Origin: Paracoccaceae bacterium
GTDB lineage: Bacteria > Pseudomonadota > Alphaproteobacteria > Rhodobacterales > Rhodobacteraceae
NCBI GenBank assembly: GCA_017852835.1
Contig: JAFMKS010000001.1
Coordinates: forward strand, 1 to 64,000
Length of the DNA: 64,000 bases
Reading direction: 5' to 3'
The notes below the pieces were generated by a model. That model was not told the DNA's origin and ran no database searches. It saw only the letters and a list, made by a program, of their open reading frames with translations. Below are positions 48,063 to 62,272 of this stretch, in pieces. Positions within the stretch are counted from its first letter, which is position 1. Each line of letters opens with the position of its first letter. Both the position numbers and the translations under genes were made by a program.

Positions 48063-49520
48063 ATGCTGACATCACTGTTTAAAATTGTGTTATTCCTCAT
48101 GATTGTGGTGGCTATTTCATTTGGCGCTACACATTTGATGGACGGTGACAATACGATCATTGGTGATTTGATGATCACTTTGGGCGGGGTTGAATACACC
48201 CTTAGTGCAATAGAAGCGGTCATTGTTTTAACGCTTTTGGTTGTGTTGATTTGGGTTGGGTTGAAGTTGTTGTCGCTACTTGTCGCGACGTTGCGGTTTA
48301 TCAACGGTGATGACACGGCCATTTCGCGCTATTTTAATCGATCCCGTGAACGGCGTGGGTATCGCGCGTTGTCCGAAGGAATGATGGCCCTTGCGTCGGG
48401 TGATGCGAATGCTGCGATGACCAAGGCAGGTCAGGCAGAGCGGTACCTGCAGCAGCCAACCTTGACCAATTTGCTTGCGGCGCAGGCTGCGGAAATGTCT
48501 GGGAATACGACACGTGCCGAACAGATTTACAAAGAATTGATTAAGGATCCCCAAACCCGATTTGTGGGTGTCCGCGGGATCATGAAACAACGCCTTGCGA
48601 CGGGCGACACAGATGTTGCGCTTAAACTGGCGCAAAAAGCCTTTGAATTAAAGCCCAAGCACGAAGAGGTGCAGGATGTTTTGCTACAGCTTCAGGCTAA
48701 ATCGCACGACTGGCAGGGCGCGCGCAAAACCCTTGGTGTGAAACTTAAGCAGGGGAAAATACCACGTGATGTTCATAAACGCCGAGAGGCTGTTTTGGCA
48801 TTGTCTCAAGCCGCGGATGTCATCGACGAGGAAAATTCAATCGAGAAACGAGAAGCGGCGATTGAAGCGAACCGTCTGTCACCAGATTTGGTGCCCGCAG
48901 CAGCGATGGCGGCGCGTGAATATATCGCGCAGGGCAAGCCAAAATTGGCAGTTCGCGTCATTAAAAAGGCCTGGGAAAGTCAGCCACATCCTGATTTGGC
49001 AGCGGCCTTTTCAGAAATTGCACCAAATGAAACGCCGCAAGAGCGCCTTAAGCGTTTTGCGCAGCTTTCAAAGTTGAACCCATATCACATTGAGTCACGT
49101 TTGATGATGTCTGAACTGAACCTTGCAGCCGAAGATTTCCCAGAGGCGCGGCGCGCATTGGGGGATATCGTGGAGAACGAACCCGATGCACGTGCCCTAA
49201 CAATCATGGCCGCGATTGAGCGGGGTGAAGGCAGCTCGGACGAGGTTGTGCGCGGTTGGCTGACCAAAGCGTTGTCAGCTCCGCGTGGACCTCAGTGGGT
49301 TTGTGACAAGTGTAACACCATCCATTCTGACTGGGTGCCTGTCTGTTCATCGTGTGATGTGCTGGACACGCTAAGCTGGAAGCAAGCGCCGCAAAATGAA
49401 ATGCAGACAAGTACAGGGATTGAAATGCTCCCACTTTTGATGGGAGCATTTCAGGATGAAATGGATGAAGGTGATCTAACTAAAATAGATGAGCCAGCGA
49501 TGGATCAAAGCCAAAGCTGA
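48063..49520 (+). CDS. hemY: HemY-like TPR membrane protein with C-terminal zinc-ribbon-like motif
   Basis: Two N-terminal TMs, TPR array, FNRSRERRGYRALSEGMMALASGDANAAMTKAGQAERYL; C-terminal WVCDKCNTIHSDWVPVCSSCDVLDTLSW. Confidence 0.85.
   Translation: MLTSLFKIVLFLMIVVAISFGATHLMDGDNTIIGDLMITLGGVEYTLSAIEAVIVLTLLVVLIWVGLKLLSLLVATLRFINGDDTAISRYFNRSRERRGYRALSEGMMALASGDANAAMTKAGQAERYLQQPTLTNLLAAQAAEMSGNTTRAEQIYKELIKDPQTRFVGVRGIMKQRLATGDTDVALKLAQKAFELKPKHEEVQDVLLQLQAKSHDWQGARKTLGVKLKQGKIPRDVHKRREAVLALSQAADVIDEENSIEKREAAIEANRLSPDLVPAAAMAAREYIAQGKPKLAVRVIKKAWESQPHPDLAAAFSEIAPNETPQERLKRFAQLSKLNPYHIESRLMMSELNLAAEDFPEARRALGDIVENEPDARALTIMAAIERGEGSSDEVVRGWLTKALSAPRGPQWVCDKCNTIHSDWVPVCSSCDVLDTLSWKQAPQNEMQTSTGIEMLPLLMGAFQDEMDEGDLTKIDEPAMDQSQS
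49422..49452 (-). terminator. Perfect 12-bp hairpin inside the hemY 3' coding region, positioned as terminator for the aglK side
   Basis: gaaatgctccca-cttttga-tgggagcatttc; 27 nt beyond the aglK stop codon on the minus strand. Confidence 0.6.
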
Positions 49521-50541
49521 GGTCCTGACCAACTTCTATTTCGGGCACATCTTGTCCCGCAAAACGGAACGGCGTTCCGTCTTGGGTGCGCAATTCCACG
49601 ACGGTTTCTGTACCTAATCGTTCGACAAGTGTCACGGTACCCTTCAGCTGACCGTTGGGATCCAAAACCAAATGTTGTGGTCGCACACCCATGCGAACCG
49701 CAGCTCCGTTTGATTTTTCTGTCGCGACAAGACGCAGACCACTTATCTGCATTCCTGATCCATTGAATTTAGATGTCGACGCATCTGTTAATTCACCATC
49801 AAAGAAATTCATTTTGGGAGATCCAAGGAAGCCCGCCACAAATTCATTATCTGGGAAATTAAACAAATCCATCGGCGAACCAACTTGCATGATTTCACCG
49901 TCTTTTAGAACTACGATTTTATCCGCAAGCGTCATAGCCTCGACTTGGTCGTGGGTCACATAGATCGTGGTTGCACCCAGTTGTTTGTGCAATTTTGCAA
50001 TCTCAACGCGGGTGTCATGGCGCAGCGCGGCGTCAAGGTTTGACAGGGGTTCATCGAATAAAAATACATCTGGATTGCGCACAATCGCACGTCCGATTGC
50101 AACACGCTGACGCTGACCACCGGAAAGCGCAGCGGGACGGCGATCCAGCAGATGTTCCATTTGCAAAATTTTTGCAGCGGCCTCTACGCGCTCTTGAATT
50201 TCGGCCCTGGCGACGCCCTGCAAGCTTAGCGAAAAGGCCATGTTGTGAAAAACGCTCATGTGTGGGTAAAGCGCATAGGATTGGAAAACCATCGCAATGC
50301 CGCGCTCAGAAGGTGGTAAATCCATAACAGGACGGTCGGCGATGATGATTTCACCGCTTGTCAGGCTTTCTAATCCTGCGATAAGGCGTAGTAGGGTTGA
50401 TTTACCACATCCAGATGGCCCCACAAAAACAACAAACTCACCCTTGTCGATAGACAGGTCAACGTCGCGGATGACGCGGGTTTTGCCGAATGTCTTCTCA
50501 ACATTTCTAAGTTCTACCTGTGCCAAATTAAATCTCCTCAA
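49480..50541 (-). CDS. aglK: Sugar ABC transporter ATP-binding protein (UgpC/AglK/MalK type)
   Basis: VFVGPSGCGKSTLLRLIAGLESLTSGEIIIADRPVMDLPPSERGIAMVFQSYALYPHMSV; C-terminal TOBE region; last gene of aglEFGAK. Confidence 0.88.
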   Translation of the reverse strand: MRRFNLAQVELRNVEKTFGKTRVIRDVDLSIDKGEFVVFVGPSGCGKSTLLRLIAGLESLTSGEIIIADRPVMDLPPSERGIAMVFQSYALYPHMSVFHNMAFSLSLQGVARAEIQERVEAAAKILQMEHLLDRRPAALSGGQRQRVAIGRAIVRNPDVFLFDEPLSNLDAALRHDTRVEIAKLHKQLGATTIYVTHDQVEAMTLADKIVVLKDGEIMQVGSPMDLFNFPDNEFVAGFLGSPKMNFFDGELTDASTSKFNGSGMQISGLRLVATEKSNGAAVRMGVRPQHLVLDPNGQLKGTVTLVERLGTETVVELRTQDGTPFRFAGQDVPEIEVGQDLSFGFDPSLAHLF

Positions 50542-52081
50542 AGGATGCAGTTAGTGTGTCAAAATCAAAGGTGCAGCGCAGAGTTTGTGCGTTGCTGATA
50601 CGATCAAATACCAATGTACGCGCATCACCGCTTACGGCGCTCATCGTATTGGCATTCATGATAGCCGGCTGATTTTTACGCCAAGCCAAGAATTGCGCAA
50701 ATTGTCGATAGATGGATCCATCTGTTTGGGCCATGTCCAATCCAGCGCGCTTCAAATGTTGACCGGATATAGGAAGCCATGTCGCATCTGCTGTTGAAAA
50801 ACCACCGTGTTGATTGGATTTTTCCCAAACCATCGGCGTGCGGCAGGTGTCGCGTCCCAAAAACGCTGGTGCAAATTTTACACCCCAGGGGTCTTGCATT
50901 TGCTCTACAGGGATATCCGTAACGTCCTCAAGCCCGAGTTCCTCGCCCTGATAAACACAACTTGAACCGATCAAACAGGTTTCCAGTTTAAGCAGCAACA
51001 GTTGCATTGCATCGCTTTGGTCAGGACCAAGACCCAGTGCAGCAAGTTGACGTGTTGCCGAGCGTGGAACGTCATGGTTTGAAAAGGCAAAGCATAAGCG
51101 ACCAGTGCCATTAAACACATCAACCGCATTGTTAATCGCATTGCGCAGGCCATCAACACTCAACCCACCCCATGCCAATAGATCAAAGTTATAGGTTGCG
51201 TGAAGTCGTCCAGTGTCGGTAAAGGTTTTGCTGACCTCCATGGCGCAGCCTTTGTCGCCGTCCACTTCACCCATCAAAAACCGATCACCATCGTATTCAT
51301 CTGTGATTTTTCGATAATTTTCGCTGAATGTTTGAATGGCAGGCTGATTTAGCTGCGCAACATCATGCAATTGGCGAAAAAATGGTTGTTGTTGTTGTGG
51401 TAAATCACCAGGAACAAAGTTTGGGTTAGCAGAATTATCCAAATAAGGTGCTTGATCGCCATTGATTGTATGAACCGCATCCAAACGGAAGCCATCGACA
51501 CCGCGATCAAACCAAAACCGTGCAACCTGGTTCAACGCATCGCGTACCTCTGGATTGGCGTGGTTCAAATTGGGCTGTTCTGATAAAAAGTTGTGCAGAT
51601 AGTATTGCTGACGACGGGGCTCCCAACTCCATGCTTGGCCACCAAAGAATGATAGCCAATTGTTCGGAACTGTGCCGTCAGGATTTGGGTCGACCCAATG
51701 AAACCAATCTGCTTTTGGATTATCGCGTGATTGACGGCTTTCTTCAAACCATGGGTGCAAATCCGAGCAGTGTGCTGGAACGATGTCGATCATCAATTTC
51801 ATGCCTAGGTCATGAATTTTTGCAATCATTTCATCAAAATCAGCAAGAGTGCCATATTCAGGATTTATGTCGCAATAGTTTGAAATATCATACCCAAAGT
51901 CCCGCTGAGGAGACATGAAAAACGGGCTGATCCAAATCGCATCAACTCCTAATCCCGCGATATATTCCAACCGCGATGTGATCCCCTTTAGATCACCAAT
52001 CCCATCCCCATTCGAATCCTGATAAGAGCGAGGATAAATTTGATAAATGACGGCGGTTTCCCACCATTTTAGGTCTGACAT
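50528..52081 (-). CDS. aglA: GH13 alpha-glucosidase
   Basis: WWETAVIYQIYPRSYQDSNGDGIGDLKGITSRLEYIAGLGVDAIWISPFFMSPQRDFGYDISNY; GFRLDAVHTI; FSNHDVPRSATR. Confidence 0.93.
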   Translation of the reverse strand: MSDLKWWETAVIYQIYPRSYQDSNGDGIGDLKGITSRLEYIAGLGVDAIWISPFFMSPQRDFGYDISNYCDINPEYGTLADFDEMIAKIHDLGMKLMIDIVPAHCSDLHPWFEESRQSRDNPKADWFHWVDPNPDGTVPNNWLSFFGGQAWSWEPRRQQYYLHNFLSEQPNLNHANPEVRDALNQVARFWFDRGVDGFRLDAVHTINGDQAPYLDNSANPNFVPGDLPQQQQPFFRQLHDVAQLNQPAIQTFSENYRKITDEYDGDRFLMGEVDGDKGCAMEVSKTFTDTGRLHATYNFDLLAWGGLSVDGLRNAINNAVDVFNGTGRLCFAFSNHDVPRSATRQLAALGLGPDQSDAMQLLLLKLETCLIGSSCVYQGEELGLEDVTDIPVEQMQDPWGVKFAPAFLGRDTCRTPMVWEKSNQHGGFSTADATWLPISGQHLKRAGLDMAQTDGSIYRQFAQFLAWRKNQPAIMNANTMSAVSGDARTLVFDRISNAQTLRCTFDFDTLTASFEEI

Positions 52082-52084
52082 TAT

Positions 52085-53311
52085 TTATCCACCCTTGACG
52101 GATCCGGCCAAGAGGCCGCGAATGAAATAGCGTTGCATTGATAAAAAGACGATGACAGGAACGATCATGGAAATGACGGCTGATGCGTTCAGCAAGTGCA
52201 GCTGATCTTTGAATGTTCCCAGTTGTTTTTGCAGGCGGATTGGAAATACCAAATCCTCGGCATTGTTTGGGCCAATATACAGCGCCACAATCAAATCGTT
52301 CCAAACCCACAAAAATTGGAAAATACTGAATGATGCCAGCGCGGGAACAGACAGCGGCACAATCAATTTCGTAAAAATTTGCAGATGGTTGGCCCCATCA
52401 ATTCGCGCACTTTGCAAGAGTTCCTTGGGCAGTCCCACGATGTAGTTGCGCAACAGATAGATCGCCAACGGTAAGCCAAAGGCAGTATGCGTAATCCAGA
52501 GGCCCGCAAAGGATTTTGAGGCGACCTGACAGGTGTCATTTACCTCGCAATCCGTCAGCCATTGGTTCAATTGTGTTGCCCATGATGCAATGCCGCTGAA
52601 CCCTTGTAACACAGGAAGAAATGCAAGCTGTGTGGGGACAACCATCAAAGAAACTACAATAACAAATAACCAATCGCGCCCTGGGAATGACATCCATGCA
52701 AAGGCATACGCCGCAAAGGCGGCGATTGTGATTGGTATGATCGTGGCCGGAATTGTAACGATAAAGGATGAGATTAGCGCGTTTGGAACGTTTTTATTGT
52801 CAAACAAAACTTCGACATAGGCATCCGAACCGAACACCGGATCCTGATCGATGAACGCATCCAGTTTTTTGGGCTTTGGTGCGGTTTCCTCGGCGAAGGT
52901 CCAGGTAAAATCGCCATTTTCCTGAAACACAAAATCCCCGCCGCGCACATCCATAACCTCACCAGCGGGAACCAGTTTGCGGATCAGCACGGTTTTGTCT
53001 GGGTTCTCGGGGTCAGGCACACGCCCCTTAAACAAGATAGAATTTACTTCGCCTGTTACAGGAAAACTTGGGTCATCTTTGTTCAGGCGTTCAAAAATAT
53101 TTCCCGTCATCACAGTCAGTTTTTCAGCCTCACCATTTTCGTGCGTGCTAAAGCGCTGACCCAATTCGGTTGGCGTAAAGGCCGTCCAGAAACCTGATGT
53201 CTTCGACGCGGTTTCCGAGCGAAGCGATGTAGTAACTAGCGCAACAAATGGGACAACCCAGATGAATACAATTAGCGCCAGCACAACGTGTTTAAGTGAT
53301 CGTGCAACCAT
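52085..53311 (-). CDS. aglG: Alpha-glucoside ABC transporter permease (AglG type)
   Basis: Large periplasmic loop after TM1, then ALISSFIVTIPATIIPITIAAFAAYAFAWMSFPGRDWLF; EELLQSARIDGANHLQIFTKLIVPLSVPALASF-type EAA motif. Confidence 0.88.
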   Translation of the reverse strand: MVARSLKHVVLALIVFIWVVPFVALVTTSLRSETASKTSGFWTAFTPTELGQRFSTHENGEAEKLTVMTGNIFERLNKDDPSFPVTGEVNSILFKGRVPDPENPDKTVLIRKLVPAGEVMDVRGGDFVFQENGDFTWTFAEETAPKPKKLDAFIDQDPVFGSDAYVEVLFDNKNVPNALISSFIVTIPATIIPITIAAFAAYAFAWMSFPGRDWLFVIVVSLMVVPTQLAFLPVLQGFSGIASWATQLNQWLTDCEVNDTCQVASKSFAGLWITHTAFGLPLAIYLLRNYIVGLPKELLQSARIDGANHLQIFTKLIVPLSVPALASFSIFQFLWVWNDLIVALYIGPNNAEDLVFPIRLQKQLGTFKDQLHLLNASAVISMIVPVIVFLSMQRYFIRGLLAGSVKGG

Positions 53312-53323
53312 CTCGCCTACCCC

Positions 53324-54577
53324 TTAATGACCAAGTTCTTTTTGTTCGCGGCGGATGCGCCACGCATTGAAAATCATGTTTGGAACAACCGTCAGCATCA
53401 GCATTACGGCAATTGATGCAAACAGATTATCAACATTATCACCACCAATGGACCAGTTGTTACGCGCATTTTCCATCATTGTCGCCAGCAACAGTTTGTC
53501 ATCGTCATTCGCGGACAGGGCATAGGGTATGTCGAATACCTTTAGCACCAAAATGACAAGCGTTGTCCAAACAACCAAAACGGTTGAATAAATCTGTGGC
53601 AGTTTCACACGGAAGAACAGTTGGAAAGGATTGGCACCATCGATTGTCGCGGCTTCAATGGTGTCTTGTGGGACACCGCGAAGCGCAGCTGAAAAAATGA
53701 CCATGGCAAATCCAGTTTGGACCCAAACCAAAATCCACATAAGAAAGAAGTTGCCCCAAAATTTCAGATTGTAAAGCGGTTCGTTGTATTCTGCGGTATG
53801 GCCAAGCAGGGCTTTTAACAAACCGATTTGATAGGAGGGCGTGACACCGTTGATGGTTTGTTGCGCCTCAATCCCACCCCCGGCAAAGATATTTCGCCAA
53901 ATTACCGCGGCCCCAACGAATGAAATTGCCAAAGGTACAAAGATCAGCGTTTTAGCAACAATACCCCAGCGCACTGAGTCCGCTAATACCGCGATCAACA
54001 AACCCAAAGAAATACAGCATGTCGGCACAAGGATCAGCCACATCAAACTGTTTCGCATCGCCAAGCGGAACTGCAGATAACCCAATGCGGATTCATCCCA
54101 AAGGAATGCATAGTTGCGAACAGTTGGTGTTCCATCCGCCTCTTGGAAGGAAATACTAAGCGTTGAAAAGGCGGGGATTAACAGGAATAGAAGTAATAAA
54201 ACAAGGGCAGGACCAACAAAAATCCAAGGCTGAATCGCTTCAATTATTGTCGACTGACGACCAAGGGAGCCCTGCGACGATACACGTGCAAGCCCCATGT
54301 TTAACCAGTTTGAAATCCAGAAGTATAGAAACGAAATACCAACCGCGATAAAGATTGCGCGGATTGCGAAACCGATTTTTGAAAAACGTTCAATGGTGTC
54401 AAATTCCGGAAACGACCATTCGTTCGTGCGATGCAGCCAAATACCAATATTTGCAAAAAAGTCATCAATCGGCCCAGTCGCAACAAAGGCAACAACGGCT
54501 GTTGTGGGCAGAAGAAAGACAACGGTTAATAAGATTGCCAAACCATTGCCGGCTATTACAGGTCTAATTGAACGCAT
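53324..54577 (-). CDS. aglF: Alpha-glucoside ABC transporter permease (AglF type)
   Basis: GIVAKTLIFVPLAISFVGAAVIWRNIFAGGG; EAATIDGANPFQLFFRVKLPQI. Confidence 0.88.
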   Translation of the reverse strand: MRSIRPVIAGNGLAILLTVVFLLPTTAVVAFVATGPIDDFFANIGIWLHRTNEWSFPEFDTIERFSKIGFAIRAIFIAVGISFLYFWISNWLNMGLARVSSQGSLGRQSTIIEAIQPWIFVGPALVLLLLFLLIPAFSTLSISFQEADGTPTVRNYAFLWDESALGYLQFRLAMRNSLMWLILVPTCCISLGLLIAVLADSVRWGIVAKTLIFVPLAISFVGAAVIWRNIFAGGGIEAQQTINGVTPSYQIGLLKALLGHTAEYNEPLYNLKFWGNFFLMWILVWVQTGFAMVIFSAALRGVPQDTIEAATIDGANPFQLFFRVKLPQIYSTVLVVWTTLVILVLKVFDIPYALSANDDDKLLLATMMENARNNWSIGGDNVDNLFASIAVMLMLTVVPNMIFNAWRIRREQKELGH

Positions 54578-54620
54578 GAGTAGGTCCGAAACGATTTAAT
54601 GATGTTTCAAATTGAGGAAA

Positions 54621-54638
54621 GGGCGCAATCGCGCGCCC
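54621..54638 (-). terminator. Intra-operon hairpin between aglE and aglF (attenuator/mRNA-stabiliser candidate)
   Basis: Minus strand gggcgc-gcgatt-gcgccc followed by tttcc, just after aglE stop. Confidence 0.55.
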
Positions 54639-54664
54639 CTTCGCTATAGTGTCTGCAATCTAAA

Positions 54665-55999
54665 TTACTTGATTGCGTCCCAAGCTGCCTGAATATTGTC
54701 AGCAGTTGTTTGTGCATCCTGACCGTTTGCAAAGGCTGTCATCTCTGACCAGAATGCGCCCGCACCGATCGCACCTGGCATTAGGTCAGATGCGTCAAAG
54801 CGGAATGTTGTTGCGTTTGACAGAATTTCACCTTGCTTACGAAGTGCTGGTGTCGCGTATGCGTTTAGGTCGGCACCTTTGTGCGCAGTTAGGAACGTGC
54901 CTTGTGACATCCATGCTTCGTGTGCTGATGCTTCTTTCATATACTCAAAGAAGGCACGTGTCGCGGGTGAGTCTTTGGTCATTGTCCAAAGAGTACCCGC
55001 GCCCAAAACGGGGTTGCCTAGATCTTTTGACGCATATGGTGGGAAGTAGAAGAAGTCTGCTTCACCGTTTGCAACTTCTTCACCTTTTTTCGGGAAGAAC
55101 GCTGGAATGAATGACGCCTGACGGTGCATCATGCAGCTTGCTGGTGATGAGAATAGACCTTTTGGCGCGTCGCCAAAGAATGTTGTCGCAACAGATGATG
55201 CACCACCCGCAACATAATCGTCATTGCGTGAGAATTGGCCATATACTTCCATCGCGTTCAATACTTCTGGGCTGTTGAACGGTAGGTCGTTTGATACCCA
55301 GCGGTCATAGTTTTCAGGAGACGTTGTGCGCAGCATCAAGTCTTCCATCCAGTCTGTCGCTGTCCAACCAGTCGCGTTTCCAGATTCTACACCGATACAC
55401 CATGGTGTGTTGCCGTCTGCAACCATTTGGTCTGACAATGCGATTAGCTCTTCCATAGTTGATGGAATTTCATAACCGTTGTCTTCGAACTGCTCTGGTG
55501 AATACCAGACCAATGATTTCAGGTCCATTTTGAACGCAAAACCGTAGAAGTTTTTGTTGCCGTCCGCATCTGCGTATGTACCAAGATCGACCCATGATTG
55601 GCCCGCACCGTAGTTTGCCGCCATCCAGTCTGCAGATGCTTGACCTAGTGGTACAAGGTGGCCTTCTTTCGCCATATCACCTGCCAAACCTGGCTGAGGG
55701 AAGATTGCGATGTTTGGTGCGTTGTTTGAACGTAGGTCTGCAACGATCAATGCCGCAAAGTCACGAGAACCAGAGTACTTAACAACTGCGCCAGTTGCTT
55801 TTTCAAAGCAGCTAACTGTGTTCGTTAGCATTTCTTCGTCTTTGCCCTCCATAGAGCCCGCGATTGTGATGACTTCACCGTCAAAGCGACCTAGGTCACC
55901 CAATTTTGATGGTGTGTCACACACGTCAGCACTTGCAACGCCTGCAAGCGTGAAAGATGCAACAGCAGCCGCACCCAGTGTCTTGAAGTTGATAGCCAT
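54665..55999 (-). CDS. aglE: Alpha-glucoside-type ABC transporter substrate-binding protein (AglE)
   Basis: Signal peptide; ITIAGSMEGKDEEMLTNTVSCFEKATGAVVKYSGSRDFAALIVADLRSNNAPNIAIFPQPGL; FFYFPPYASKDLGNPVLGAGTLWTMTKDSPATRAFFEYM. Confidence 0.88.
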   Translation of the reverse strand: MAINFKTLGAAAVASFTLAGVASADVCDTPSKLGDLGRFDGEVITIAGSMEGKDEEMLTNTVSCFEKATGAVVKYSGSRDFAALIVADLRSNNAPNIAIFPQPGLAGDMAKEGHLVPLGQASADWMAANYGAGQSWVDLGTYADADGNKNFYGFAFKMDLKSLVWYSPEQFEDNGYEIPSTMEELIALSDQMVADGNTPWCIGVESGNATGWTATDWMEDLMLRTTSPENYDRWVSNDLPFNSPEVLNAMEVYGQFSRNDDYVAGGASSVATTFFGDAPKGLFSSPASCMMHRQASFIPAFFPKKGEEVANGEADFFYFPPYASKDLGNPVLGAGTLWTMTKDSPATRAFFEYMKEASAHEAWMSQGTFLTAHKGADLNAYATPALRKQGEILSNATTFRFDASDLMPGAIGAGAFWSEMTAFANGQDAQTTADNIQAAWDAIK

Positions 56000-56087
56000 A
56001 AAAATTTCTCCCAATTTTTTATGATTGGTGATTTTTCACCATTAAGGCTCCGCTGTGAATATCACACCGTATCCCGATGTTTACCGC

Positions 56088-56216: not shown

Positions 56217-56693
56217 TTACCCAGCGACGTATTTTCCATTTGAAAAGATCAATGGTGAACCGTCGGTTGCCCGAAAATCAATAACTTTCCCAACGATGAT
56301 TGTGTGGTCACCACCATCAAAAGTTGCGTGTTGTTGGCACATGAAACGTGCAACACCACCCATTAAGTATGGGCATCCAGTCGCAGCGTGTTTCCAATCT
56401 GTCTCGCTGGATCCGCCTGCTGATTTGGCGAAATCACGACACAGGTCCAGTTGGTCAAATGACGCGATGTGAATGGCGAATTCAGTTGCATTCACAAACG
56501 CATCATACCGACGCGAGGATTTCGCAGGGGACCACAGCACAAGCGGTGGATCAAGCGAGAGACTTGCAAAACTGTTTGCGGTGATCCCCATTGGTCCGTC
56601 TGGACCGCTGCATGTGACAATAGTCACACCTGTCGCGAAACGACCCAATGCATCGCGAAATGCGCGCTCATGAAAGCTTGTTGGCGTTGTCAT
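56217..56693 (-). CDS. Flavin reductase family protein; SmoA candidate
   Basis: FHERAFRDALGRFATGVTIVTCSGPDGPMGITANSFASLSLDPPLVLWSPAKSSRRYDAF; last gene of an LLM monooxygenase operon. Confidence 0.88.
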   Translation of the reverse strand: MTTPTSFHERAFRDALGRFATGVTIVTCSGPDGPMGITANSFASLSLDPPLVLWSPAKSSRRYDAFVNATEFAIHIASFDQLDLCRDFAKSAGGSSETDWKHAATGCPYLMGGVARFMCQQHATFDGGDHTIIVGKVIDFRATDGSPLIFSNGKYVAG

Positions 56694-56701
56694 CTTTATC
56701 C

Positions 56702-57592
56702 TTACGCAACTTCACGTCCAAGCGCGGCCGTGTAAATTTCATACCATGTTTGGCGATCCATTTTCACGTCTAATGCAGCTGACATGCCCTTTATCCGATC
56801 AAGTGAATTCGTACCAAGGACAGGTAGTATGCGAGAGGGATGTGCCAAGAGCCATGCAATCGCAACAGCGGTTTCATCAACATTATTTTGTAATGCCACA
56901 TTGGATAGGGCGCTCATGATGTCTGGATGATCGCCGGAAAACAGCGCGCCACCTGCCAATGGCGACCATGCCATCAAAGGTGTTCCGATCCGCTGATGAA
57001 AGGCGACATCTCCGTTCACAAATGAGTCATGCGCCAAAACACTCAGTTCAATTTGATTGGTAACCAGCTGATTTTTCATCGCTGATTGCAAAAGTTCCCA
57101 ATCATAGTGTCGAAAATTCGATACGCCAACACTGCGAACCTTGCCTGATGCAATGACTTCATCCAATGCGGCCCCTGTTTCGTGGTGATCCATCAATGGG
57201 TCAGGCCGGTGGATTAGAAGCAAATCAATGTGATCAATCCCCATCAAACGAAGTGAATGATCAACGGACGCCAAAATGTGCGCACGCGAAGTGTCATAAT
57301 ATTTCACGCGTGCGTCTGCGTATCGACCAACAGGTGCGATGATATCACATTTCGTGACGATCTCCATTTTGTTGCGCAAAGTTGATCCAGACAGCGCATT
57401 TCCCAAAATTTCTTCGGCCTCATACCCACCATAAATATCTGCCTGATCAAATGACGTAATGCCCTGATCCAAACTTGCATCAATTTTAGCGCGCACGTGG
57501 TTAGGACTGGTATTTTTGTCATCGCCTAATCGCCACATGCCATAGACGATCCGCGACAGGCTAACCTCTTTATTCAGGGAAATACGTTCCAT
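56702..57592 (-). CDS. Aldo/keto reductase; SmoB (6-oxo-glucose reductase) candidate
   Basis: SLSRIVYGMWRLGDDKNTSPNHV...SFDQADIYGGYEAEEILGNAL...MEIVTKCDI...IDLLLIHRPDPLMD (AKR catalytic Asp, Tyr, Lys, His contexts). Confidence 0.9.
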   Translation of the reverse strand: MERISLNKEVSLSRIVYGMWRLGDDKNTSPNHVRAKIDASLDQGITSFDQADIYGGYEAEEILGNALSGSTLRNKMEIVTKCDIIAPVGRYADARVKYYDTSRAHILASVDHSLRLMGIDHIDLLLIHRPDPLMDHHETGAALDEVIASGKVRSVGVSNFRHYDWELLQSAMKNQLVTNQIELSVLAHDSFVNGDVAFHQRIGTPLMAWSPLAGGALFSGDHPDIMSALSNVALQNNVDETAVAIAWLLAHPSRILPVLGTNSLDRIKGMSAALDVKMDRQTWYEIYTAALGREVA

Positions 57593-58746
57593 TATTTTCT
57601 AACTCCTGCGCCCAGTGGCGTCATTGGTGTTTTGGATGGCACACGACCATATGCATGCGGCAGAGAACATGTTTTCATGTTCGGCAGCACTTTGGTGCCA
57701 AAATGTTTGCATTCGTCAATATGTGGGTAGCCCGACAAAATGAAAGCGCGAATGCCCATTTTTTGATAGGCTTCAAGCTCACTCAAGACTTGATCCGCAG
57801 ACCCAACAATGGCCGCCCCACACCCTGAACGCGCGCGCCCAACACCCGTCCAAAGATGGGGTTCGACATATCCAAATTCATCTGCAATATCGCGGTTTTT
57901 GGCCTGATGTGAAACGCCCAAGGATGTGCTGTCTAGCGCTCGTTCGCGGATTTTGCGACCATGTTCATCATCGAGCTTGGACACAATGTGCTCTGCGTAT
58001 TCTTTCGCCTCTGCTTCAGTATCACGTACGATTACATGAACACGTAAACCATAATCTAATGTGCGATTATAACGCTCTGCAACTGTATTTACGGCCTTCA
58101 TACGCTCTGCGATTTGCTCTTTGGGTTCAGGCCACATCAAGTACACATCACAGTGCTGTCCGCATAACTCAAGCGCGGCAGGCGAGTAGCCTCCAAAATA
58201 CAACAATGGACCGCCCGTTTGATACGGTTTCGCTGGATCGGATGTCAGCCCTTGGAAATTATACACCTCACCCTGATAGTTGATTTCATCCTGCGTCCAA
58301 GCTTGTTTCAGGATTTCGACCACCTCGCGCGATCGCTGATACCGAAATGCGCTATCCGCCTTTTCACCTGGAAAATCGCTACTGATTATGTTCACGGTCA
58401 ATCGTCCGTGCATCATGTGATCCAGTGTCGCGATTGTACGGGCCAGCATGATGGGCTGCATTTCTCCGCAACGCACGGCGGCGAGCATATTGATCCGATC
58501 AGTGATTGGGGCACAGCCCGCCACAAAGCTCAGCGTGTCTTGGCCCACCTGATAGGACGAAGGACACAAAATATTACGAAATCCGTGTTCTTCTGCGGTT
58601 TTTACAATTGTGCTGCAGTGATCCCATGATGAACGCAGTGATCCATCGGGTTGCCCCAAAAATTGATAGTCATCTGAACATAGGGCAGAAAACCATGATA
58701 CCTCTACTGCGTCCAAATCTGGCGATGTTATGGGAACAATCGTCAT
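57592..58746 (-). CDS. SsuD-like LLM-class flavin-dependent monooxygenase; SmoC (sulfoquinovose monooxygenase) candidate
   Basis: VSWFSALCSDDYQFLGQPDGSLRSSWDHCSTIVKTAEEHGFRNILCPSSYQVGQDTLSFVAGCAPITDRINMLAAVRCGEMQPIMLARTIATLDHMMHGRLTVNIISSDFPGEK; alternative start at 58761. Confidence 0.85.
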   Translation of the reverse strand: MTIVPITSPDLDAVEVSWFSALCSDDYQFLGQPDGSLRSSWDHCSTIVKTAEEHGFRNILCPSSYQVGQDTLSFVAGCAPITDRINMLAAVRCGEMQPIMLARTIATLDHMMHGRLTVNIISSDFPGEKADSAFRYQRSREVVEILKQAWTQDEINYQGEVYNFQGLTSDPAKPYQTGGPLLYFGGYSPAALELCGQHCDVYLMWPEPKEQIAERMKAVNTVAERYNRTLDYGLRVHVIVRDTEAEAKEYAEHIVSKLDDEHGRKIRERALDSTSLGVSHQAKNRDIADEFGYVEPHLWTGVGRARSGCGAAIVGSADQVLSELEAYQKMGIRAFILSGYPHIDECKHFGTKVLPNMKTCSLPHAYGRVPSKTPMTPLGAGVRK

Positions 58747-58790
58747 GCCAACCTCATCCAATGAATTACCACTTGCGTAGCATCAGATTT

Positions 58791-58812
58791 ATAGTAGATC
58801 AATAGTGTATCA
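58791..58812. repeat. Two 11-bp tandem direct repeats in the divergent LLM-monooxygenase/gntR promoter region
   Basis: atagtagatca / atagtgtatca (9/11 identical), one helical turn apart. Confidence 0.5.
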
Positions 58813-58831
58813 ATTTTTTATTCTGGACCAG

Positions 58832-59527
58832 ATGAGCAATCAACAAAGCCTGCCAAAATATCTTCAGATTAGTGAACTGCTGATCCGCGATATCGCCGCG
58901 GGCCGCCTTGAGGATGGTGCGCGCCTACCTACTGAACGCGACTTGGCAACACAATTATCAACATCCGTTGGCACACTGCGCAAAGCATTGTCGGAATTAG
59001 AGCGGCAGGGATTGGTAGTACGGGTCCAAGGATCAGGAAACTACATTCGATCCAAATCAGAAGTGAATTCGATTTATTCCTTCTTTCGCGTAGAATTATT
59101 AGAGGGTGGCGGGCTTCCTCGGGCAGAGGTTCTTGACGTGTCCAAGCAACCCAAACCCACTGAATTTCCCTATTTCGGGTCTAATAATGATGGTTTCAGG
59201 ATCCGCCGCATGCGGTATTTGAACGATATTCCAGCCGCGCTGGAAGAGATTTGGTTAGACGCAAATCATGCAAAACACATTACCCCCGCGGATCTAAACG
59301 AAGCGCTTTATGTGTATTATCGCAAATCGCTTGATCTATGGATCACGCGGGCCGAGGATCGCATTGGATTGCAGCCAAAACCAACGTGGTGCCCCAAATA
59401 TTTGCACCTTGATGACATCACAGTCTGTGTGGAACGGCTGAGTTTTGATCAGCGCGATCAGCCCGTTGAATTTTCCAAAAGCTGGATCAACTCTAACGTT
59501 GCCCAATACGTGGCACGCATAAAATAG
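58832..59527 (+). CDS. GntR-family (HutC/UTRA subfamily) transcriptional regulator
   Basis: LPKYLQISELLIRDIAAGRLEDGARLPTERDLATQLSTSVGTLRKALSELERQGLVVRVQGSGNYI; UTRA-like effector domain. Confidence 0.93.
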   Translation: MSNQQSLPKYLQISELLIRDIAAGRLEDGARLPTERDLATQLSTSVGTLRKALSELERQGLVVRVQGSGNYIRSKSEVNSIYSFFRVELLEGGGLPRAEVLDVSKQPKPTEFPYFGSNNDGFRIRRMRYLNDIPAALEEIWLDANHAKHITPADLNEALYVYYRKSLDLWITRAEDRIGLQPKPTWCPKYLHLDDITVCVERLSFDQRDQPVEFSKSWINSNVAQYVARIK

Positions 59528-59535
59528 GAGCAGTT

Positions 59536-60627
59536 ATGAAAACGGTTAAATATGGAATAATCGGTTGCGGCATGATGGGCCAAGAACATCTGCGCAATAT
59601 TGCATTGCTGCCTGATGTCGAGGCGACAGTCATTTTTGAACCTGACGCAGGGATGCGTGCGGCAGCAGCTGAGTTGGCACCCAAGGCAAAGTTTGCTGAA
59701 AGTGAAGCGGACGTTTTACATGACCCTGATATTGATTGTTTGTTGGTGGTCTCGCCAAATCACGAACATTTGCGTCAGTTAGAATGCGCATTGGACGCAC
59801 CTCATCGCCCGATCCTGATAGAAAAACCCCTATTCACCCAAGAAGATGGGGCAGAACGGATCAAACAATTTGCTGCACAGTATTCAGCACCAGTCTGGGT
59901 TGCCATGGAATACCGCTATATGCCGCCTGTTGCGGCACTGATCGATAATTTGGATATATCCACTGGGGGTGCGCGGATGTTAACCATTCGTGAACACCGC
60001 TTCCCGTTCTTGGAAAAGGTTGGGGATTGGAACCGGTTCAACGCCAACAGTGGTGGTACATTCGTTGAAAAATGCTGCCACTTTTTCGATTTGATGCGTT
60101 TAATTCTGAAATCAGATCCTGTTCGCGTGATGGCATCGGGTGGGCAAGTCGTAAACCATTTAAATGAAACCTATGATGGTAAGGTGCCTGATATTTGGGA
60201 TCATGGGTACGTGATCGTTGATTTTGCAAGCGGTGCGCGCGCCATGTTAGAATTGTGCATGTTTGCCGAGGGTGCCGAATTTCAGGAACACATTATTGCA
60301 ACTGGGCCTGATGGGATCATTGAGTCCCTTGTGCCTGGACCCGAGCGATTTTGGCCGACAGAAACATTGGGGCCCAGTCCGACGCCCAAGTTAATTGTCA
60401 GTCCGCGTAACCCAAAAGGCCCGATTGAAAAGGAAATTCCCGTCGATCCAACAATCTTGGCGGCGGGAGATCACAATGGATCAACCTTTTATCAACATCA
60501 GAAATTCGTTGATATGGTACGCAATGGTAGGCAGCCAGAAGTGTCGCTGAATGATGGAATGTGGGCGGTTCGTATGGGTCAAGCCGCCCAAGAAAGTGCG
60601 CGTACAGGTCAAGCCATCATTTTATAA
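59536..60627 (+). CDS. Gfo/Idh/MocA-family protein; candidate NAD+-dependent sulfoquinovosidase (GH188/SqgA-like)
   Basis: YGIIGCGMMGQEHLRNIALLPDVEATVIFEPD Rossmann motif; ILIEKPLF; EHRFPFLEKVGDWNRFNANSGGTFVEKCCHFFDLMRLIL; same transcriptional unit as gntR. Confidence 0.85.
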   Translation: MKTVKYGIIGCGMMGQEHLRNIALLPDVEATVIFEPDAGMRAAAAELAPKAKFAESEADVLHDPDIDCLLVVSPNHEHLRQLECALDAPHRPILIEKPLFTQEDGAERIKQFAAQYSAPVWVAMEYRYMPPVAALIDNLDISTGGARMLTIREHRFPFLEKVGDWNRFNANSGGTFVEKCCHFFDLMRLILKSDPVRVMASGGQVVNHLNETYDGKVPDIWDHGYVIVDFASGARAMLELCMFAEGAEFQEHIIATGPDGIIESLVPGPERFWPTETLGPSPTPKLIVSPRNPKGPIEKEIPVDPTILAAGDHNGSTFYQHQKFVDMVRNGRQPEVSLNDGMWAVRMGQAAQESARTGQAIIL

Positions 60628-60706: not shown

Positions 60707-62272
60707 ATGTCTGATTATGATTTTGATGTCTTTATCATCGGGGGCGGTATTAACGGGTGTGGTATCGCACGTGATGCAGTCGGACGTGGGTATCGCGTGG
60801 GTCTGGCCGAAATGAATGATCTTGCTTCGGCAACATCTTCGGCATCTACAAAATTATTTCATGGCGGCCTTCGTTACCTAGAATATTTTGAATTCCGGTT
60901 GGTGAAAGAGGCGCTGGTTGAACGCGAACATTTGCTGCATGCCATGCCGCATATCAGTTGGCCAATGCGTTTTGTTTTGCCAATCGCGCCCGACATGCGA
61001 TTTGACAACAGCACGCCGACATCACGATTGTTGCAAAAGATCATGCCGTGGATGAAGGGCCGCAGGCCTGGTTGGTTAATTCGACTGGGTCTGTTTTTGT
61101 ATGACCACATGGGTGGCCGAGAGGTTTTGCCCGCGACGAAAACGTTGAATTTGCGCACCGCACAAGAGGGAGGTCCGCTGAAACAATTGTTTGTGAAAGC
61201 ATTTGAATATTCCGATTGCTGGATCGAAGATTCTCGGCTTGTGACATTGAATGCGCAGGATGCACAGCAGCGTGGCGCAACGATCATGACGCGTACCAAG
61301 GTGGTTGCGACCAGCCGACAGTCGGACCATTGGATTGTTACGCTGTTGGATCAAAAGACCCAAGTTAGACACGAAATCACGACGAAAATGATTGTGAACG
61401 CGGCTGGCCCGTGGGTTGGTGAATTGTTGGGTCAAACTCTGGGATTGAAAACCAATGAAGGCGTGCGATTGGTTCGTGGAAGTCACATTGTTACCCATAA
61501 GTTATACGATCATAACAAGGCCTATTTTTTTCAAGGAACGGATGGGCGTATCATTTTTGCGGTTCCCTATGAACGTGATTTCACGTTGATCGGCACAACG
61601 GATCAGGATCACTTAGATCCAGATGCACCGGTCGAATGCACCGCCGAAGAACAGGCATATCTATTGAAATTTGCCTCGCAATATTTTGAAACCCCAGTGA
61701 CTAAGGATGATATTGTTTGGACGTTTTCTGGTGTGCGCCCGCTTTACGATGATGGGGCGTCATCCGCATCGGCTGCGACGCGGGATTATGTGTTAAAGGT
61801 GGACAATTCAAATGGGCAAGCGCCTGTTTTGAATATCTTTGGCGGGAAAATCACAACCTATCGAAAATTGGCGGAAAGCGCGTTGGTTGAAATCGAAAAT
61901 GCGCTGGGCATCAAATCTGGGCCATGGACAAAACGCGTGCCATTACCTGGCGGTGATTTTGACGTAGATGGGTTTGATGAATTGGTCGAAAATCTGTTGG
62001 ATACCTATGATTTTCTGACACCTTCTTGGGCCACGCGAATGGTTCGTATGTATGGAACGAATGCGGTAAAAATCATTGCCACGGTCACACAAACACCTGA
62101 TCAAAAACAGAATTTTGGATGTGATGTTACCGCGGCTGAACTGGATTGGGGCATTAAAAACGAATTTGTTCAAACGGCAGACGATTTTGTGTGGCGGCGT
62201 TCGAGGATGGGTCTCAAACTTACCTCAGCACAGATTGATGTGATCAATACATATATTTTGGATAACCAATAA
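60707..62272 (+). CDS. glpD: FAD-dependent glycerol-3-phosphate dehydrogenase
   Basis: DVFIIGGGINGCGIARDAVGRGYRVGLAEMNDLASATSSASTKLFHGGLRYLEYFEFRLVKEALVEREHLL. Confidence 0.96.
   Translation: MSDYDFDVFIIGGGINGCGIARDAVGRGYRVGLAEMNDLASATSSASTKLFHGGLRYLEYFEFRLVKEALVEREHLLHAMPHISWPMRFVLPIAPDMRFDNSTPTSRLLQKIMPWMKGRRPGWLIRLGLFLYDHMGGREVLPATKTLNLRTAQEGGPLKQLFVKAFEYSDCWIEDSRLVTLNAQDAQQRGATIMTRTKVVATSRQSDHWIVTLLDQKTQVRHEITTKMIVNAAGPWVGELLGQTLGLKTNEGVRLVRGSHIVTHKLYDHNKAYFFQGTDGRIIFAVPYERDFTLIGTTDQDHLDPDAPVECTAEEQAYLLKFASQYFETPVTKDDIVWTFSGVRPLYDDGASSASAATRDYVLKVDNSNGQAPVLNIFGGKITTYRKLAESALVEIENALGIKSGPWTKRVPLPGGDFDVDGFDELVENLLDTYDFLTPSWATRMVRMYGTNAVKIIATVTQTPDQKQNFGCDVTAAELDWGIKNEFVQTADDFVWRRSRMGLKLTSAQIDVINTYILDNQ

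Follow-up and report, generated by a model that had tools for sequence, protein, structure and literature searches.

A predicted GH188 NAD+-dependent sulfoquinovosidase in the sulfo-SMO locus of a HIMB11-like Rhodobacteraceae bacterium

The closest described counterparts of the protein analysed here are FlSqgA (PDB 8qc2/8qc8) and ArSqgA (8qc3/8qc5/8qc6), the founding enzymes of GH188, in which NAD+ oxidises C3 of the sulfoquinovose (SQ) glycoside, elimination across C1-C2 and addition of water follow, and C3 is finally re-reduced (Kaur et al. 2023, PMC10755693). Enzymes of this kind release SQ, a sulfosugar of plants and algae, from fragments of sulfolipids. A characterised SqgA is recognised by NAD+-dependent, metal-independent hydrolysis of SQ glycosides, during which solvent deuterium enters at C2. 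The first SqgA was found in an Arthrobacter sulfo-EMP cluster; among marine Roseobacter bacteria, sulfo-SMO clusters without GH31 nearly always contain GH188 as well (Kaur et al. 2023, PMC10755693). In Agrobacterium-type sulfo-SMO, the sulfoquinovosidase (SQase) is the GH31 enzyme SmoI. A 2026 review cites Ma et al. 2025 on the SQases of marine Roseobacteraceae. Here we focused on a locus within the first 64,000 nucleotides of contig JAFMKS010000001.1 (this whole stretch is hereafter called the window), which comes from a bacterium in the same genus as Rhodobacteraceae HIMB11. The locus encodes a Gfo/Idh/MocA protein that an earlier, sequence-only reading had proposed to be a GH188-like SQase replacing a GH31 enzyme.

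Assignment of the window protein to GH188

The first result of this study is that the window protein, which we call SqgA, is with a probability of roughly 95% a GH188 NAD+-dependent sulfoquinovosidase, its predicted activity being carried over from the published enzymes. The reading frame is intact, with an ATG start and 363 codons followed by a stop, and both halves of the protein fall into the Gfo/Idh/MocA superfamily in Pfam (GFO_IDH_MocA, 7e-17; GFO_IDH_MocA_C, 1e-20). An N-terminal glycine motif of the GxGxxG type (G10-C-G12-M-M-G15, GCGMMG) and an EKP motif (residues 96-98) are present; the reading frame is exactly the one described from the sequence alone, and both types of motif had been noted there. 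When all solved structures were searched with phmmer, the best matches were 8zn9 (498.6 bits), 8qc2 (345.1) and 8qc3 (339.4), so that the nearest solved sequences include the two enzymes that define GH188; the next match was a dehydrogenase at 52.6 bits, and inositol dehydrogenases scored about 52. The alignments to 8qc2 and 8qc3 span SqgA residues 2-361, so that the protein resembles the characterised SqgA enzymes along its whole length, and identity to the full-length solved homologues is 47% or more (167/357, or 47%, for ArSqgA). The closest of these, 8zn9, is named only "Oxidoreductase, putative" and carries the same residues as the window protein. A match of 499 bits to 8zn9, together with at least 583 relatives in a search of genome contigs, places the family signal far beyond chance. 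From these relatives, 80 were fetched for the locus and residue counts given below.

Curated Pfam and NCBIfam searches of SqgA returned no GH188 model, and the assignment therefore draws on the closest solved structures, the conserved residues and the phylogeny. In the crystal structure of ArSqgA, SQ is touched by K107, Y136, R166, L170, K172, E189, H193 and H321 (PMC10755693). In the phmmer alignment, K107, Y136, E189, H193 and H321 correspond to identical residues K97, Y126, E178, H182 and H313 in the window protein, and the sulfonate triad R166, L170 (through its backbone) and K172 to R155, L159 and K161. Together with E153 (codon at 59992-59994) these residues make nine positions (K97, Y126, E153, R155, L159, K161, E178, H182 and H313), none of which varies among the 80 relatives or the three solved GH188 sequences in a MAFFT alignment; as a set, they are absent from the inositol dehydrogenase 4mkx, the dehydrogenase 3ezy and seven Gfo/Idh/MocA paralogues from the same genome. 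One number in the literature does not fit this scheme. At the offset that suits the eight other residues, the Glu163 named in PMC10755693 falls on V/R, and residue 164 of ArSqgA is a Glu that matches E153; judging from the aligned sequences, the printed number looks to be off by one. The window SqgA is not among the Tyr-variant GH188 groups of PMC11465081.

Phylogeny points to the same conclusion. In an IQ-TREE analysis of 43 sequences, GH188 including SqgA forms one group at 100/99, with the inositol dehydrogenases and own-genome paralogues outside; since the non-GH188 sequences sit on very long branches, only the split between GH188 and the rest was used, not the order outside it. Within GH188, 8zn9 groups with Roseobacter insulae, whereas SqgA clusters with HIMB11 and two other loci (L023 and L026) in a small subclade (94/96).

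Two other readings of the protein have to be weighed against this evidence. It could be a Gfo/Idh/MocA dehydrogenase that acts on inositol or another sugar with net reduction of NAD(P)+ and lies beside smoABC by coincidence. Such a reading can draw on the best NCBIfam match, TIGR04380 (inositol 2-dehydrogenase), which at 104.8 bits is far under its 355-bit cutoff, and on the Rossmann and EKP motifs, which are common to the whole superfamily. We nevertheless regard it as extremely improbable, because inositol dehydrogenases score 6-10 times fewer bits than the GH188 structures, each catalytic and sulfonate-binding residue is of the GH188 type and the set is missing from 4mkx and 3ezy, the tree separates the two groups, and smoC is linked to sqgA in every one of the 80 relatives. 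Alternatively, a true GH188 enzyme might have a main substrate other than sulfoquinovosyl glycerol (SQGro), such as a sulfofucoside or an SQ glycan with beta linkages. Members of GH188 do cut SQ glycosides of either configuration, alpha as well as beta (PMC10755693), and there are related pathways for sulfosugars; yet the residues contacting SQ are the same as in ArSqgA and FlSqgA, and the SmoC encoded next to it belongs to the SQ monooxygenases, which makes another main substrate very improbable. All sequence-level checks that the earlier reading had called for turned out in its favour.

A sulfo-SMO locus with GH188 in place of GH31

The second result concerns the genes around sqgA (Table 1), which lies directly downstream of gntR, at a distance of 8 bp, and divergently from smoCBA on the minus strand, in the arrangement that had been noted beforehand. 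SmoC scores 708 bits against PDB 7oh2 and 706 against 7olf, compared with 192 for the alkanesulfonate monooxygenase structures 1m41/1nqk, and SmoB scores 410 bits against 7bby/7bbz, compared with 204 for the next family. We take 7oh2/7olf and 7bby/7bbz to be the characterised sulfo-SMO enzymes, their PDB names themselves being generic. SmoA, SmoB and SmoC are encoded together beside sqgA, as expected of the sulfo-SMO pathway, and by sequence these neighbours are true sulfo-SMO genes. Two starts deserve comment. The smoC reading frame as called covers 57592-58761, but translation probably begins at the ATG at 58746 (MTIVPITSPDLD), the start seen in relatives; gntR can open at a GTG at 58805, with its ATG at 58832 as the likelier start. 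We also think that gntR and sqgA are probably cotranscribed.

Table 1. Features of the sqgA locus, in window coordinates
Feature	Coordinates	Strand	Evidence or remark
AglE-like ABC solute-binding protein, start of Agl-type operon	54665..55999	-	Replaces the usual TRAP transporter; putative role in SQ/SQGro uptake
smoA, flavin reductase	56217..56693	-	Pfam Flavin_Reduct 6.8e-38
smoB, aldo-keto reductase (6-oxoglucose reductase)	56702..57592	-	PDB 7bby/7bbz match
smoC, FMNH2-dependent sulfoquinovose monooxygenase (LLM monooxygenase)	57592..58746	-	PDB 7oh2/7olf match
Candidate operator ATCAATAGTGTATCAAT in smoC-gntR gap	58798..58814	+	Conserved in 79/80 loci
gntR, GntR/HutC-type regulator with UTRA domain	58832..59527	+	Pfam GntR 2.4e-18, UTRA 2.4e-19
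sqgA, predicted GH188 NAD+-dependent sulfoquinovosidase, 363 aa	59536..60627	+	phmmer to 8zn9/8qc2/8qc3, conserved residues, tree
glpD, glycerol-3-phosphate dehydrogenase	60707..62272	+	NCBIfam NF008899 716.7 bits, cutoff 360

This gene content is a stable association. Both gntR and smoC occur in the sqgA locus of all 80 relatives and smoB in that of at least 74 (three matches of 26% identity being left out of the count), and the divergent order, in which smoABC and gntR-sqgA lie on opposite strands, is kept in nearly all of them, one locus (L036) being rearranged. Within the HIMB11-like genus, GH188 is found in 4/4 genomes at 96-100% identity.

No GH31 SQase is encoded in the sulfo-SMO cluster, and none was recognised by a GH31-model search of the source genome, which is 82.5% complete. 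The sole match over the cutoff in that genome (G000:C117) was rejected as an SQase, as it is a GH36 alpha-galactosidase (Melibiase, 1.2e-106). The congeners G001 (99% complete) and G002 (95% complete) have no clear GH31 either; weak matches to the model in G001 and G003, at most one per congener, have a reading frame similar in length to the GH36 gene. It is possible that a GH31 gene was missed in the 82.5%-complete genome. The proposal that GH188 stands in for the GH31 enzyme is supported by a cluster devoid of GH31 and by the GH36 identity of the one genomic match over the cutoff. The locus shares with the GH188 systems of Kaur et al. 2023 the fold family, the full length and the mapped residues of SqgA as well as its placement in an SQ catabolic cluster without GH31, while differing from the first Arthrobacter case by its sulfo-SMO setting and 47% identity. 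With Agrobacterium-type sulfo-SMO it has homologues of SmoA, SmoB and SmoC in common, but it has GH188 where that system uses SmoI, which was not found in the genome.

A shared intergenic element and the flanking genes

Between the divergent units lies an operator-like element, ATCAATRGTGTATCAAT, consisting of two ATCAAT boxes 11 bp apart. It recurs within 2 mismatches in 79/80 loci, in 78 of them in the smoC-gntR gap and in one, L036, by gntR, and 12 of its 17 positions are invariant across these 79 loci; the conserved block among relatives reads roughly TTGATGTAGATCAATRGTGTATCAATTT. In L036, where smoC has been relocated, one copy lies by gntR and a second upstream of smoC (L036:782), and outside the smoC-gntR gap these are the only 2 matches in 1.43 Mb of locus DNA. 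The window copy is the only exact one in its own genome. The simplest reading is that the element is a candidate operator of the GntR regulator, and the evidence is suggestive rather than proof because the motif was defined on the same loci and the loci are related. Among the papers listed by a literature search, none was on point for an operator of this GntR regulator.

In 50/80 relatives the locus contains a TRAP transporter that is an orthologue of the one in a Ruegeria locus (L028), and at the same spot the window, HIMB11, L023 and L026 have an ABC operon of the AglE type that includes a GH13 alpha-glucosidase. In the window, this operon occupies 49480-56014 and is codirectional behind smoA. 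Its AglE-like solute-binding protein has no Pfam match. Matches to the DctP protein of L028 in four congeners lie at only 22-31%, and a close TRAP orthologue is therefore lacking there. We did not accept the Agl solute-binding protein as a dedicated SQ binder: a 92% homologue from a different genus (L102) lacks a smoA gene within 1.5 kb, which counts against a strict SQ role, smoA and aglE are separated by about 200 bp, and this gap contains no further copy of the operator motif. On the other side, glpD starts 79 bp downstream of sqgA and neighbours GH188 in just one of the 80 relatives, HIMB11; GlpD could consume the glycerol of SQGro. A broader scenario, in which the HIMB11-like lineage lost the TRAP transporter, SQGro enters through the Agl-type ABC system with glucosylglycerol and other alpha-glucosides as further substrates, and GH13, GH188 and GlpD form one sugar-glycerol locus, seems to us unlikely.

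Proposed pathway and its meaning

By analogy with the published enzymes, SqgA would hydrolyse SQGro, and probably further SQ glycosides of alpha or beta configuration, through an oxidoreductive cycle: bound NAD+ would accept a hydride from C3 of the SQ glycoside, the aglycone would leave by elimination across C1-C2 with removal of the C2 proton, and, after addition of water at C1, NADH would give the hydride back to C3. SmoC, with FMNH2 from SmoA, would then desulfonate the freed SQ to sulfite and 6-oxoglucose, which SmoB would reduce to glucose. The adjacent GntR protein would probably keep the two divergent units repressed until it binds a ligand related to SQ. The sequence-only reading had called this a fully NAD/flavin-driven pathway. 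Its pairing of a sulfo-SMO set with an NAD+-dependent SQase holds, but NAD+ is not a driver: as it is reduced and re-oxidised in each GH188 turnover, the net reaction is hydrolysis and the cofactor is catalytic, none being consumed.

The sequence-only reading of this locus was correct, and the presence of GH188 in Roseobacter sulfo-SMO clusters is already published as a generality (Kaur et al. 2023, PMC10755693); to that picture, the transporter swap and the conserved operator-like element add small points. Our analysis supports the idea that a coastal bacterium of the HIMB11 type is able to use sulfolipid head groups in the form of SQGro, beyond free SQ. Use of SQGro by such bacteria matters for tracing marine sulfonate flux, a general point already made in the literature.
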